Below are positions 5,869 to 17,660 of a stretch of DNA of 64,000 nt, one piece after another. The stretch comes from Siphonobacter curvatus. Its GTDB lineage: Bacteria; Bacteroidota; Bacteroidia; Cytophagales; Spirosomataceae. The stretch is from NCBI RefSeq assembly GCF_002943425.1, contig NZ_PTRA01000001.1:3224001-3288000 (forward strand), written 5' to 3'. Below the pieces are notes generated by a model that did no database searches, had not been told where the DNA came from, and worked only from the letters and a program-made list of their open reading frames with translations. Made by a program: the position numbers and the translations under genes. Position 1 is the first letter of the stretch, and each line of letters opens with the position of its first letter.

Positions 5869-8865
5869 ATGAAGAAAGCTTATCTGCTGTGTCTATGGTT
5901 GTTTTCACTGATCGTCACTCAAGTGTATGCTCAGGAGGGACGCCGCGTCACTGGACGAGTAACCAGTGCGGACGATAACCAACCGTTGCCCGGAGCAACG
6001 ATTGCCATAAAGGGTACCACACGTGGTACAAACACGGACGCTGAGGGGCGATTCTCTCTTGCGGCGAATACAGGCGATGTACTTTCCGTAACGTTCGTGG
6101 GAATGAAGCCGCAGGAAGTAACAGTATCTGCGGCGGCTACAGAGCTTACCATTACGCTGGAATCGGATGCTTCTACGTTAAACGAAGTCGTTGCGATTGG
6201 CTACGGAACGGCCCGCAAGAAAGACTTGACGGGAGCGGTAGCTACCTTAAAAACGGCGGACATCGTTAATCAACCCGTTGTATCGGCTACGCAAGCCATG
6301 CAGGGTAAATTAGCTGGGGTACAAATTACGGCTTCGGGTGAACCGGGTAGCGTACCGACGGTACGGATTCGCGGTACGGGTACATTGTTGGCCGGTGCAG
6401 ATCCTTTGTACGTCGTAGACGGCGTTATTACGGATGATATTCGAAACATCAATCCGCAGGATATTACCTCGATGGACGTCCTGAAAGATGCTTCAGCTAC
6501 GGCTATTTATGGGATGCGGGCTGCCAATGGCGTTATTCTGGTAACGACGAAACGTGGACAAAGCGGAGCTGTTAAAGTAACCTACGATGGTTACGTAGGT
6601 TTCCGCCAGGCTTCACGCCGGGTGAAAATGGCCGATTCGCAGCAGTACATCGACTTCTCAAACGAAGCTTTAGTACGGGCGGGTCAGCAACCTGTTTTCA
6701 CCGCGGGCGACATCAAGGCAAATACGAATTGGTTCAACGCCATTACCCGTAATGCTCTGGTTCATAATCATAACATTTCCTTGAGTGGTGGTTCTGAGAA
6801 AAGTACGTATTTTCTAAGTGGTGGTTATATGTTCGACGACGGTATTCTAAAAGGCAATGGCTATCGTCGTTTGAGCTTGCGGGCTAGCAATGATTATCAG
6901 GTCAGTAAGTCTTTCAAAGTGGGAGCCTCATTAAACCTGGCTCAGGAAGATAATGAAAACAAACCTTACTCCGCCTTTACCAGTGCCTACAAGCAGGCTC
7001 CAATCGTGCCCGTATACAATGAGGACGGCAGCTATGGATACACCCTTCGCAACAACGTAGCCAACCCGCTAGCTCAGATCAACTATACGAACGATCATAC
7101 GAAAAGTCTGCGTCTGCAAGGTGTACTGTTTGCGGAATGGAACATCACCAGTGATTTGCGATTCCGCTCGAACTTTGCCGTGGAAAACCGTTCGTTCAAT
7201 AATCGCAAGTACAACCCGATCTACGTGGTTTCTGGAAACCAGCAAAACAATACCAGTCAGCTGACACTTCGCGATGACAATGCTTCTCGCTGGGTGTGGG
7301 ATAATACCTTGACGTATACCAAAACGTTCGGTGAAAAACATAGTCTGAATGCTTTGGTTGGGGTTACCGGTGAACGCTACAAAACGAGCTTCCTCGGAGG
7401 TTCCCGTTTGAATGTACCGAACAATCCGGACTACTGGACGCTGAATCTGGGTACGCAGGCCACCGCTACCAACGAAAGCAGCATGGGTCTGGAGCGACGC
7501 CTCTCCTACTACAGTCGGGTAAACTATAACTACGATGACCGGTACCTGTTGACGGCTACCGTACGTCAGGATGGATCCAGCAAGTTTCCTTCCTCCAACC
7601 GTTCCAGCATATTCCCATCGGTGGGTGCGGCTTGGCAGATTGCGAACGAGAATTTCATGAAGGGTCAGAACCTCTTCTCTGCACTGAAACTCCGGGCGAG
7701 CTGGGGTCAGGTAGGAAACGATCGGATTGTACCGAACGCGTTCCTCTATACGCTGTCTTCAAACCTGGATTATCAGATTGACGGTCAACTGGCTCCGGGA
7801 TACACGATTCAGGATATTAAGGATTTGAATCTACGGTGGGAAGTAACGACGGAGAAAGATTTAGGTTTGGAATTTGGTTTACTAAACAACCGTCTCTCTG
7901 GGGAAGTCAACTACTACGACAAACTCACGAAAGACGCGTTGATCTACAAACCTATCGACGCTATCTTCGGTGATAACGATTCCCAGTATCTGACCAACGC
8001 CGCCGACATTCGTAACCGCGGTATTGAGTTTGGTTTGAACTGGAATGAGAAGAAAGGTGACTTCCGTTACAATGTAGGCGTGAACTTCACGATTAACAAT
8101 AATAAAATTGAGCGAGTGAACGGTGGTCTGCCTATTCAGGCTGGTAGCTTAGGTAACGGTCAAATCACCACGCAGACGGCAGAAGGACAACCCATCGGTA
8201 GCTTCTACGTGTACCAGACGAACGGTATTTTCAAAACACAGGCTGAGCTGGATGCGTATCCGCACATTTCCGGAGCAAAAGTGGGCGATCTGCGTTACGT
8301 GGACACGGATGGCAACGGCATCATCAACGGAAACGACCGCGTATATAAAGGTTCGTATCAGCCTAAGTACTTCTTTGGTCTGACGGGGGGCATCAGCTAC
8401 CGCAACTTCGATTTGAGCGTTACGGCAGCGGGTAACCTGGGCAACCAGATTTACAACGGTAAGAAAGCTCAACGATTTGGTAACGAGAATATCGAAGCTT
8501 CCGTCACCAACTGGTGGTCACCCAGTAATACGACGAGCAACAATCCCCGTCCGTCGAATGACGTAGCTCTGGCTTCTGATTACTACATCGAATCAGGCTC
8601 GTACCTGCGGATTAACAACGTTTCGCTGGGTTACAACTTACCCAAAACGCTGACGGATTCCTGGAAAATGCAAGGCATTCGCGTGTACGTGACGGCTCAA
8701 AACCTGGTGACGTTCCAGAAGTTCTCGGGCTTTACCCCTGAGCTTCCCGGTCGTACGCTCGTGAATAGCACCGACCAAACCGCGGGTACGCTGTCTTCGG
8801 GTATTGAACTGGATGCGTATCCCACGCCTCGTACATTCCTGATGGGAGTAACGGTTAATTTCTAA
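5869..8865 (+). CDS. SusC/RagA-family TonB-linked outer membrane transporter
   Basis: The 998-residue protein is the outer-membrane barrel that imports glycan pieces using energy passed through TonB. It starts with a signal peptide (MKKAYLLCLWLFSL, cleavage near VYAQ), then a carboxypeptidase-regulatory-like beta-sandwich (about 25-100, with PLPGATIAIKGTTRGTNTD), then the TonB plug with the SusC signature (VVAIGYGTARKKDLTGAV; LYVVDGVI; DVLKDASATAIYG; GVILVTTKRG). The rest is the barrel, ending in an aromatic residue (MGVTVNF), the usual recognition signal for barrel assembly. It lies 59 bp upstream of susD, downstream of a recognised promoter and candidate operator. Linked enzymes (GH144, GH3) predict beta-1,2-gluco-oligosaccharides as cargo. 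Confidence 0.95.
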   Translation: MKKAYLLCLWLFSLIVTQVYAQEGRRVTGRVTSADDNQPLPGATIAIKGTTRGTNTDAEGRFSLAANTGDVLSVTFVGMKPQEVTVSAAATELTITLESDASTLNEVVAIGYGTARKKDLTGAVATLKTADIVNQPVVSATQAMQGKLAGVQITASGEPGSVPTVRIRGTGTLLAGADPLYVVDGVITDDIRNINPQDITSMDVLKDASATAIYGMRAANGVILVTTKRGQSGAVKVTYDGYVGFRQASRRVKMADSQQYIDFSNEALVRAGQQPVFTAGDIKANTNWFNAITRNALVHNHNISLSGGSEKSTYFLSGGYMFDDGILKGNGYRRLSLRASNDYQVSKSFKVGASLNLAQEDNENKPYSAFTSAYKQAPIVPVYNEDGSYGYTLRNNVANPLAQINYTNDHTKSLRLQGVLFAEWNITSDLRFRSNFAVENRSFNNRKYNPIYVVSGNQQNNTSQLTLRDDNASRWVWDNTLTYTKTFGEKHSLNALVGVTGERYKTSFLGGSRLNVPNNPDYWTLNLGTQATATNESSMGLERRLSYYSRVNYNYDDRYLLTATVRQDGSSKFPSSNRSSIFPSVGAAWQIANENFMKGQNLFSALKLRASWGQVGNDRIVPNAFLYTLSSNLDYQIDGQLAPGYTIQDIKDLNLRWEVTTEKDLGLEFGLLNNRLSGEVNYYDKLTKDALIYKPIDAIFGDNDSQYLTNAADIRNRGIEFGLNWNEKKGDFRYNVGVNFTINNNKIERVNGGLPIQAGSLGNGQITTQTAEGQPIGSFYVYQTNGIFKTQAELDAYPHISGAKVGDLRYVDTDGNGIINGNDRVYKGSYQPKYFFGLTGGISYRNFDLSVTAAGNLGNQIYNGKKAQRFGNENIEASVTNWWSPSNTTSNNPRPSNDVALASDYYIESGSYLRINNVSLGYNLPKTLTDSWKMQGIRVYVTAQNLVTFQKFSGFTPELPGRTLVNSTDQTAGTLSSGIELDAYPTPRTFLMGVTVNF

Positions 8866-12091: not shown

Positions 12092-12120
12092 TTATTGGTT
12101 ATTGGTAGCATATCTGCAGT

Positions 12121-12531
12121 TTTCGTCCCATTGAGTTGGCTGCTCTTTTAGTCCATATCGCAAACTCCGCTTTTTTCACTCTGCTTTAGGCCACCACATT
12201 GCGGATGAAACCATTCCATGCCGGCCGGCATGGAATGCGATAGGACGGAGCCCGGGTTTATGCCGTCCATGTAGGCTTCAAGTTGTCTTTTAACAACTAG
12301 CAACTATTGACGAACAACTAAATGAAAGGCTGGGAGATGAAAACCTCTCCCGCCCGGAAGCAACAGAACGACCTACGATAGCCGCAATGCGGTGGGTTTG
12401 AGCGGGCTGTCGCCGCCATGGAATGGTCAGTCGTGGAGAGGTCCAGCCTGGAAGGCTTACGGGCTACCGAATAGCCGTGCTTAAGGGCCCAGACTCGGTC
12501 TAGGTGAATAACGAAGTTCTAAAAGAGCAAA
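12121..12531 (+). repeat. Dispersed intergenic element, copy A (about 411 bp)
   Basis: This non-coding block is homologous to copy B at 17126-17540. Three blocks align in the same order: the left end (12121-12158), a core (12366-12462) and the right end (12495-12531). Within the core, 33 consecutive bases (12430-12462) are identical to 17440-17472. The ends carry an 11-bp perfect inverted repeat, TGCTCTTTTAG (12141-12151) and CTAAAAGAGCA (12519-12529). The core can fold: ACGAC/GTCGT outside CGATAGCC/GGCTGTCG, with an inner CCGC/GCGG. It has no open reading frame of note. It could be a MITE-like element, or a structured RNA closed by the terminal helix. Confidence 0.7.
12212..12237. repeat. 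26-bp perfect palindrome inside copy A
   Basis: CATTCCATGCCGG (12212-12224) is followed directly by its reverse complement (12225-12237). Copy B has only degenerate versions of this motif (around 17164-17194). Related half-sites (CCATGGAATGG) occur at other places in both copies. Confidence 0.8.
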
Positions 12532-12618
12532 GCTTTCTCGCCATGGATTGGCCCCAAGCCATACTAACGTAACCTAACTCCGTTTGACTCTGCAAGAAAT
12601 CAATAAATGATTTATTCC

Positions 12619-16842: not shown

Positions 16843-17125
16843 GAAGTGAATAGAATGGAAATCAAACCCTTAAAGTAAGCGATAAAACATAGGTTTTTAT
16901 TGCAAAAAGCGATCAAAGGTTAAAATGAAGTGCTGGCAAGGCACTTATGATTTGTTTTACCTGATTTTGCTGTGATTGAAAAGACTATTTTTCGAAAAAA
17001 GCCCGAAAACTTCTGAATGGCAGAGTTTTTTAATCTGTATGAATAGGGATTTGAATAAAGTATTGATTTAATAAGAAGAGCCTTTTCGTTTTGTGATTGG
17101 AAGTATTGCATTAAATGAAGACCTG
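16843..17125. other. Upstream region of the M28 gene
   Basis: No gene is visible. The part next to the M28 start codon carries a putative minus-strand promoter (16884-16917); the rest is AT-rich with no feature I recognise, up to the left end of element copy B. Confidence 0.5.
16884..16917 (-). promoter_or_regulatory. Putative promoter of the M28 gene
   Basis: On the minus strand TTTG (16917-16914), 22 nt and TATGTTTT (16891-16884) resemble the Bacteroidota promoter, with the last base of the -7 box off consensus. GCGATC (16909-16914) and GCGATA (16879-16884) overlap the -33 and -7 elements. Confidence 0.4.
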
Positions 17126-17540
17126 TTTCGTCCCGCTGAGAAGGCTGGTCATTTAGTCCGTATGCATTCCATGCCGGGCATCGCATGCCGGCACGCCCAC
17201 CGCTGACTTCATCCTGCTCAGGGCCACCATGAAATGGTATGCGGCTTTTCGTGATAAGATGGGGTTCGGTTTTATGCCCTCCATGCAGGTATTTAACTGT
17301 CTTCTAACAACCACCAACAACTATTGATAAAAGCTAAAAATCCCTCCCCCCGTAAGCCATTCTATGGGGGCCACCATGGAATGGCAACGGAACGACCTAC
17401 GACAGCAGCCATGCGGTGGCTCAGAGCAAGCTGTCGTTAGTCGTGGAGAGGTCCAGCCTGGAAGGCTTACGGCCTACTAGCCAGTCAGTATAGAGAACCG
17501 AATTCGGTCTAGGTGGCTAACGAAGCTTTAAAAGAGCAAA
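17126..17540 (+). repeat. Dispersed intergenic element, copy B (about 415 bp)
   Basis: Homologous to copy A at 12121-12531 and in the same orientation relative to the downstream gene. The left block (17126-17163) matches at about 31 of 38 positions. The core (17390-17476) folds as ACGAC/GTCGT outside CGACAGC/GCTGTCG, with AGCC/GGCT inside. Copy A has CGATAGC in the same arm, so that pair becomes G-U and the stem is kept. The right block (17504-17540) ends in TTAAAAGAGCA. The terminal inverted repeat is imperfect here (TGGTCATTTAG at 17146-17156). A CCATGGAATGG module sits before the core (17375-17385) but lies inside the core in copy A. Confidence 0.7.
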
Positions 17541-17660
17541 ATTTTTGATAAGCAGTTCACAGGATTGCTTATAGTCTACCAATCAGCCGTGCTTATGGGG
17601 CAAAACCCGATTTAAATAAATAGAGCACCTCTAAAAAGCACACTTCATTTTTAGAACTTT
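17541..17660. other. Leader region of the molybdenum oxidoreductase operon
   Basis: No gene is visible. It contains CAGCCGTGCTTATGGGGC (17584-17601), a near copy of a segment that in copy A lies inside the element (12473-12489), so the two copies differ by a displaced block. The operon promoter is presumably here, but I could not pick it out. Confidence 0.45.

Follow-up and report, generated by a model that had tools for sequence, protein, structure and literature searches.

A palindromic, MITE-like intergenic repeat family of Siphonobacter with two head-to-head hairpin units, and its inversion and interior exchange at fixed sites

The window analysed here is a stretch of 64,000 nucleotides from the genome of Siphonobacter curvatus. 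Between positions 5869 and 14898 it carries a SusC/SusD-like pair and, after it, genes for a 558-aa protein and for a glycoside hydrolase family 3-like protein (named by eye from the sequence), and this run of genes is interrupted by a non-coding element, copy A. A related element, copy B, lies further downstream. A sequence-only reading of the window had presented A and B as a pair of homologous intergenic elements, perhaps a MITE or an undescribed structured RNA. Their homology in collinear blocks is borne out by BLASTN (74% identity over 175 bp, E 1e-29, and a second collinear block with E 1e-8), and the 33 identical consecutive bases that it reported are present; A and B are not a pair, however, but two of about 47 copies. 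Their features are the following.

12121..12542, plus strand: copy A, full element (profile match of 377 bits at 12115-12542; the element end TTTCGTCCC starts at 12121)
12121..12142, plus strand: left terminal repeat of A, TTTCGTCCCATTGAGTTGGCTG, with family form TTTCGTCCCG-N6-CGGCTG (genome pattern scan and copy alignment)
12121..12271, minus strand: left hairpin unit of A (left-half alignment and pair counts; opposite-strand matches of the right-half model to left halves)
12212..12237, no strand: perfect palindromic insert CATTCCATGCCGGCCGGCATGGAATG in the left unit of A, found by self-match; the number of such units varies among copies
12340..12515, plus strand: right hairpin unit of A, conserved core (covariance model R1, 139 bits, E 5e-31)
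12352..12361, plus strand: 5' arm of the outer, covarying helix H2 of A, GCCCGGAAGC, pairing with 12455-12464
12455..12464, plus strand: 3' arm of helix H2 of A, GCTTACGGGC, pairing with 12352-12361
12368..12383, plus strand: 5' arms of helix H3 of A, ACGAC and TACGATAGCC, pairing with GGCTGTCG (12405-12412) and GTCGT (12430-12434)
12490..12542, plus strand: right end of A, CAGACTCGGTCTAGGTGAATAACGAAGTTCTAAAAGAGCAAAGC, the reverse complement of whose inner part resembles the left end (copy alignment, ends of L137/L183)
17126..17545, plus strand: copy B, full inner element (profile match of 376 bits at 17112-17550)
17126..17147, plus strand: left terminal repeat of B, TTTCGTCCCGCTGAGAAGGCTG (pattern scan, 1 mismatch)
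17337..17524, plus strand: right hairpin unit of B (R1, 110 bits, E 6e-24)
17567..17640, plus strand: second, degenerate right-end module outside B, a nested or duplicated end (nhmmer 27 bits, E 8e-8; BLASTN of A against B, 70.7% over 75 bp)

The two elements are members of a family of dispersed repeats, of which the S. curvatus genome (G000, 6.39 Mb) has at least 47 copies. Searches of this genome returned 72 and 71 pieces matching A and B, respectively, and after profile merging 87 copies were placed in fetched contexts: 47 in G000, 39 in the sister species Siphonobacter sp. BAB-5405 (G003, about 40 copies) and one in a third species (G001). About six further diverged relics were detected in G000 by a scan for the terminal motif. 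Since these counts derive from searches, they are minima. The DNA search of 59 relatives that gave the single copy of G001 found none in three other Siphonobacter or in the remaining genomes, barring a 24-bp chance match in G047. Under stricter filters, the covariance model R1, built on the right half, had matches in G000 and G003 only among 223 family genomes, and in G000 only among 396 genomes across the phylum. An exact 20-base core pattern occurred in the genome collection in BAB-5405, with two lone single matches elsewhere that we take for chance. The repeat family was found in a few Siphonobacter only, and 217 further genomes of the family gave none. Viral contigs, plasmids and phages gave no match to the repeat, and a phage or plasmid origin was rejected on this ground. 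None of the 4227 Rfam families, including the IscB-associated HEARO and the group I and II introns, reached its gathering score in the window, and a permissive scan of copy A gave nothing at E<=5.

All 87 mapped copies are intergenic. The lack of coding capacity claimed for A and B extends to the family, as no consistent ORF was found within the copies, and a protein-coding element was rejected. The earlier claim that the elements end shortly before a gene start is not general: the downstream gene points towards the element in 49 of 87 copies and away from it in 38 of 87. Flanking genes, relative to the element, are anti/anti in 29 cases, co/co in 24, co/anti in 20 and anti/co in 14, so that the downstream gene is co-oriented in only 38 of 87 copies, and the neighbouring genes are unrelated. 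The copies favour no side and no orientation, and a cis-regulatory leader of the riboswitch or attenuator type is excluded by the random orientation and the unrelated flanking genes.

The full element is 350-500 bp long, non-coding, and made of two homologous hairpin units of about 150 nt each, arranged head to head. The left end has the form TTTCGTCCCG-N6-CGGCTG, and the motif recurs on the other strand at the right ends, with an interruption of about 20 nt in most copies (..ACGGGACCAAACTCGGTCTAGGTGAATAACGAA). The terminal-motif scan indeed returned paired matches such as 207340+/207662- (L130) and 54318+/54647-. The family's own left ends lie at 12121-12142 in A and at 17126-17147 in B. The 11-bp perfect inverted repeat that the sequence-only reading had reported at the ends of copy A (TGCTCTTTTAG/CTAAAAGAGCA) is peculiar to that copy. 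The two-unit layout follows from the behaviour of R1: built on the right half alone, it matches the left halves of many copies on the opposite strand, with scores of up to 88 bits (L189) and of 79 bits (L137). In copy A the left unit is likewise homologous to the right unit on the opposite strand, and its helix is broken by the palindrome insert.

In each unit the helices are stacked and the tip, GCAATGCGGTGGCC, is conserved. The arms hold palindromic units of about 14 bp (CATTCCATGCCGG and similar sequences), whose number varies among copies. The small palindromes CATTCCATGCCGGCCGGCATGGAATG (12212-12237) and CGCCATGGAATGG (12412-12425) appear as exchangeable inserts in the hairpin arms of copy A, and one hairpin arm may be long and the other short, as in copy B. 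In several copies, including B, a second degenerate end module lies outside the main one, on the left or on the right; such outer modules could stem from insertion of elements into older ends or from duplication of these ends.

The hairpins are supported by covariation. Half-element alignments were used because module indels made a global RNAalifold structure of 58 full copies unusable. In a MAFFT alignment of 25 copies that was not fitted to the structure, 93.0% of the cells of the right unit pair, changes on both sides occur in 13 of 26 pairs, and the covariation score is 0.254, against 0.131 for shuffled alignments and at most 0.065 for slid partners. The left unit scores 0.161 vs 0.068 (12 copies). 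On a model-fitted alignment of 99 matches the score rises to 0.468 vs 0.165, the fitting itself leaning towards structure. Helix H2 alone occurs with 35 distinct arm pairs, such as GCCCCTGAG/CTCAGGGGC, GCCTGTCAG/CTGATAGGC and GCATGTGGA/ACCACATGC. The compatible change that the sequence-only reading had noticed between A and B (CGATAGC/CGACAGC opposite GCTGTCG) is real and is one instance of this covariation, the pair being CG, UA or UG across the family (columns 67/98). That reading had set three grounds on which its finding should fall, namely no further copies, a match to a known transposon or Rfam family, or no significant covariation. Since 47 copies are mapped, neither Rfam nor transposon matches turned up and the covariation is significant, the finding stands: the observation is confirmed, and its interpretation is supported in part.

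Strong covariation in both units is an argument for a dispersed family of structured non-coding RNAs, in which each copy would be transcribed into two long hairpins under selection at the RNA level. Stable folding speaks in the same direction for copy B (z-scores of -3.5 on the sense and -2.3 on the antisense strand), but the sense-strand fold of copy A is weak (-1.8, against -3.6 antisense). Moreover, covariation by itself does not mean RNA, the gene orientation is random, and, with the unit conserved on opposite strands in the two halves, a single transcript would contain it together with its complement. Mismatch types bear on this point, as a single transcript through the element predicts the opposite G-T/A-C sign in the left half. 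Counted on the element strand with a Watson-Crick-only criterion, which is neutral between the two mismatches, G-T exceeds A-C in the right unit, as an RNA would have it (16:6 in H2, 11:5 in the inner helix), but not in the left inner helix (13:16). On the model-fitted alignment, which may favour G-U, the G-T excess tracks the unit in both halves (80:35 and 29:7), and the mismatch counts as a whole do not keep to a single strand of the element; the 80:35 excess of the right unit, which by itself would suit an RNA, thus goes with the unit and not with the element strand. These unit-following counts tell against a single transcript in a suggestive, not decisive manner. Many orthologous copies are, furthermore, internally deleted. 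A structured RNA is on these grounds unlikely, and less likely than a MITE-like repeat.

The MITE-like reading is supported by an element that is small, non-coding, dispersed and intergenic with inverted ends; two other defining features of a MITE, a target-site duplication and a parent transposase with the same ends, were looked for and not recovered. A pattern scan for the terminal motif in G000 gave no parent transposase and no longer element with the family ends, only more short copies and relics, and no transposase lies near the one isolated exact end that was examined in full. No target-site duplication was readable at the empty sites compared, because the sites are old and the flanks are too diverged even at the cleanest one, the second L139 copy against G001; the empty site L139/L210 could not be aligned at its junction. 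Y1 transposases (PF01797) are absent from G000 and present in G001-G004; those at L240, L241 and L242, in G001, G002 and G004, belong to Siphonobacter species without the repeat or with a single copy. The account of its first spread is therefore inferred, since the terminal motif led to no parent transposon and the S. curvatus genome has no Y1 transposase.

Movement as a folded single DNA strand, as in REPINs with their RAYT (Y1) transposase or in integron attC sites, would explain why the structure of the folded strand is conserved over its sequence, why the G-T excess follows unit orientation on the model-fitted alignment, and why the element is palindromic and intergenic. We consider it a still poorer candidate than the RNA: the window's genome lacks the Y1 transposases that element-free relatives possess, the size of 350-500 bp and the two-unit layout differ from REPINs, and no attC boxes or cassette arrays were seen. 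A REPIN/RAYT system proper was rejected for the missing Y1 transposase.

The history of the MITE-like repeat can be read from the sites that the sister species share. About 33 insertion sites are common to S. curvatus and BAB-5405, which places the main spread before the split of the two species; no insertion after this split was found among the sites compared. For 26 of the 47 copies of G000, G003 has a copy at the same site and in the same orientation, with flanks mostly 90-97% identical. The flanks of 15 of the remaining sites were searched, and most of these are also shared, the inverted or deleted counterparts in G003 being detected only through such flank searches. The element was dispersed before the species split and then persisted at the same intergenic sites. 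The second L139 copy is shared with G003 (L279) and absent from G001. At the site of copy A (gap 12092-12606), the spacer of G001, G002 and G005 is short and holds just a terminator-like hairpin (ACCGGG..CCCGGT), and G004 has almost no spacer; the hairpin is absent where the element is present.

Local inversion and interior replacement took place after the species split. Read from one assembled orientation per genome (G000 and G003), the element is inverted between collinear flanks at six sites: L147/L203, L137/L183, L157/L192, L143/L193, L144/L189 and L153/L176. The inverted segment of L157/L192 is itself 88.6% identical. In L137/L183 the two species have the outer left end in common and in the same direction, and the interior is flipped inside it, which places the breakpoint in the terminal repeat. 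Four further pairs (L130/L219, L142/L214, L168/L224 and L166/L229) differ by an internal deletion in one species. Inverted ends and six inversions within fixed flanks are also what a site-specific invertible switch with a dedicated invertase, controlling the flanking genes, would leave, but such a switch is highly improbable given flanking genes that are unrelated and in all orientations, breakpoints that vary by site, and interiors that are swapped and deleted as well.

The interiors of the MITE-like repeat are indeed exchanged between sites. At only 16 of the 33 shared sites is the orthologous element the best match in the other species, and at L155/L200 the orthologue ranks 33rd of 41. There, the left flank, the opening 40 nt of the element and its right end are about 95-100% identical, and the interior belongs to another subtype, with helix H3 of the ACGACC type vs the GTAACC type and both arms changed together. 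Over the shared sites, terminal segments have median identities of 0.90/0.87 between orthologues vs 0.76/0.77 between non-orthologues, and interiors an identity of 0.63 between orthologues vs a background of 0.55, a much smaller excess than that of the ends. These patterns are consistent with recombination at the terminal repeats, which would give an inversion within a copy and a swap between copies. Some of the swaps could alternatively be due to differential loss from nested ancestral copies, since remnants of second ends lie outside several copies.

The best explanation, to which we give a probability of about 0.62, is a palindromic intergenic repeat, MITE-like and non-autonomous, which works at the level of DNA and is no longer demonstrably transposing. 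An enzyme that recognised the terminal repeats and the hairpin units, a transposase or recombinase since lost or not identified as such, would have brought about the original spread. Recombination by gene conversion or template switching would flip an interior when it joins the two inverted terminal repeats of a single copy, and would swap interiors when it takes place between different copies. Part of the covariation would then date from the original need for a hairpin, and part would stem from the block-wise exchange of whole hairpins. We put forward only tentatively a wider view, in which sites and ends are fixed while interiors circulate in either orientation among about 45 dispersed loci, the inverted terminal repeats serving as universal exchange sites; this would amount to a genome-wide cassette shuffling of non-coding palindromes, possibly with a dedicated recombinase.

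Several known repeats resemble this family in part. CREE (about 100-155 bp) and ERIC (about 127 bp) are shorter. The CREE/NEMIS of Neisseria are dispersed, intergenic, non-coding MITEs with inverted ends of about 25 bp, a stem-loop and in-place inversion; they differ by their TA target duplication, whereas the Siphonobacter repeat is 350-500 bp long, has two inverted hairpin units, has given no readable duplication and swaps interiors between sites. ERIC/IRU of enterobacteria are also palindromic and intergenic, with diverged copies and mobilisation unknown, but are without the two-unit organisation. Inversion in place of Correia elements has been reported by Elbeyioglu 2017, as cited in PMC10969869, and bacterial MITE-like repeats with stem-loops and an intergenic preference are well known in general (PMC2229807, PMC10969869). 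CIR repeats of Caulobacter and Brucella, with an RNA model of two long hairpin arms and a linker (PMC2229807), share the two arms and the intergenic position, a comparison made by description that claims no sequence relation; their loop contains a GANTC methylation motif, and that of the Siphonobacter repeat the conserved GCAATGCGGTGGCC. BOX elements of Streptococcus pneumoniae are modular intergenic repeats with variable internal modules and stem-loop ends (PMC3049150), comparable in their modular variation; their order is A-B-C with tandem B, in contrast to a head-to-head duplicated hairpin with exchangeable 14-bp palindrome units. REPINs are likewise inverted pairs of short palindromes, non-autonomous and intergenic (PMC3116915), but have much smaller units and need a RAYT, which G000 lacks. 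No earlier description of the Siphonobacter repeat family or of bounded interior exchange was found in the open-licence literature. The Siphonobacter family is a new one, palindromic and MITE-like, unusual in its two-unit layout, and it gives clear evidence of inversion and interior swapping at fixed sites.

The copying, upkeep and alteration of bacterial palindromic repeats such as ERIC, BOX and CREE are still poorly known. Here, because about 33 sites are shared with flanks mostly 90-97% identical, decay, deletion, inversion and interior swap can be told apart site by site, and the copies form a good natural record of recombination between scattered repeats. The bounded swaps and inversions suggest that terminal-repeat recombination is still at work, and show that entire hairpins can pass between dispersed repeats. 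This also carries a warning: exchange of blocks can itself produce covariation among dispersed copies, which is then not necessarily the sign of a functional RNA. In one relic (L271:3010-3200), the core has collapsed into a perfect hairpin, GCCTGTCAGCATAAAATGCTGACAGGC, with the outer helix retained and the inner helix lost.
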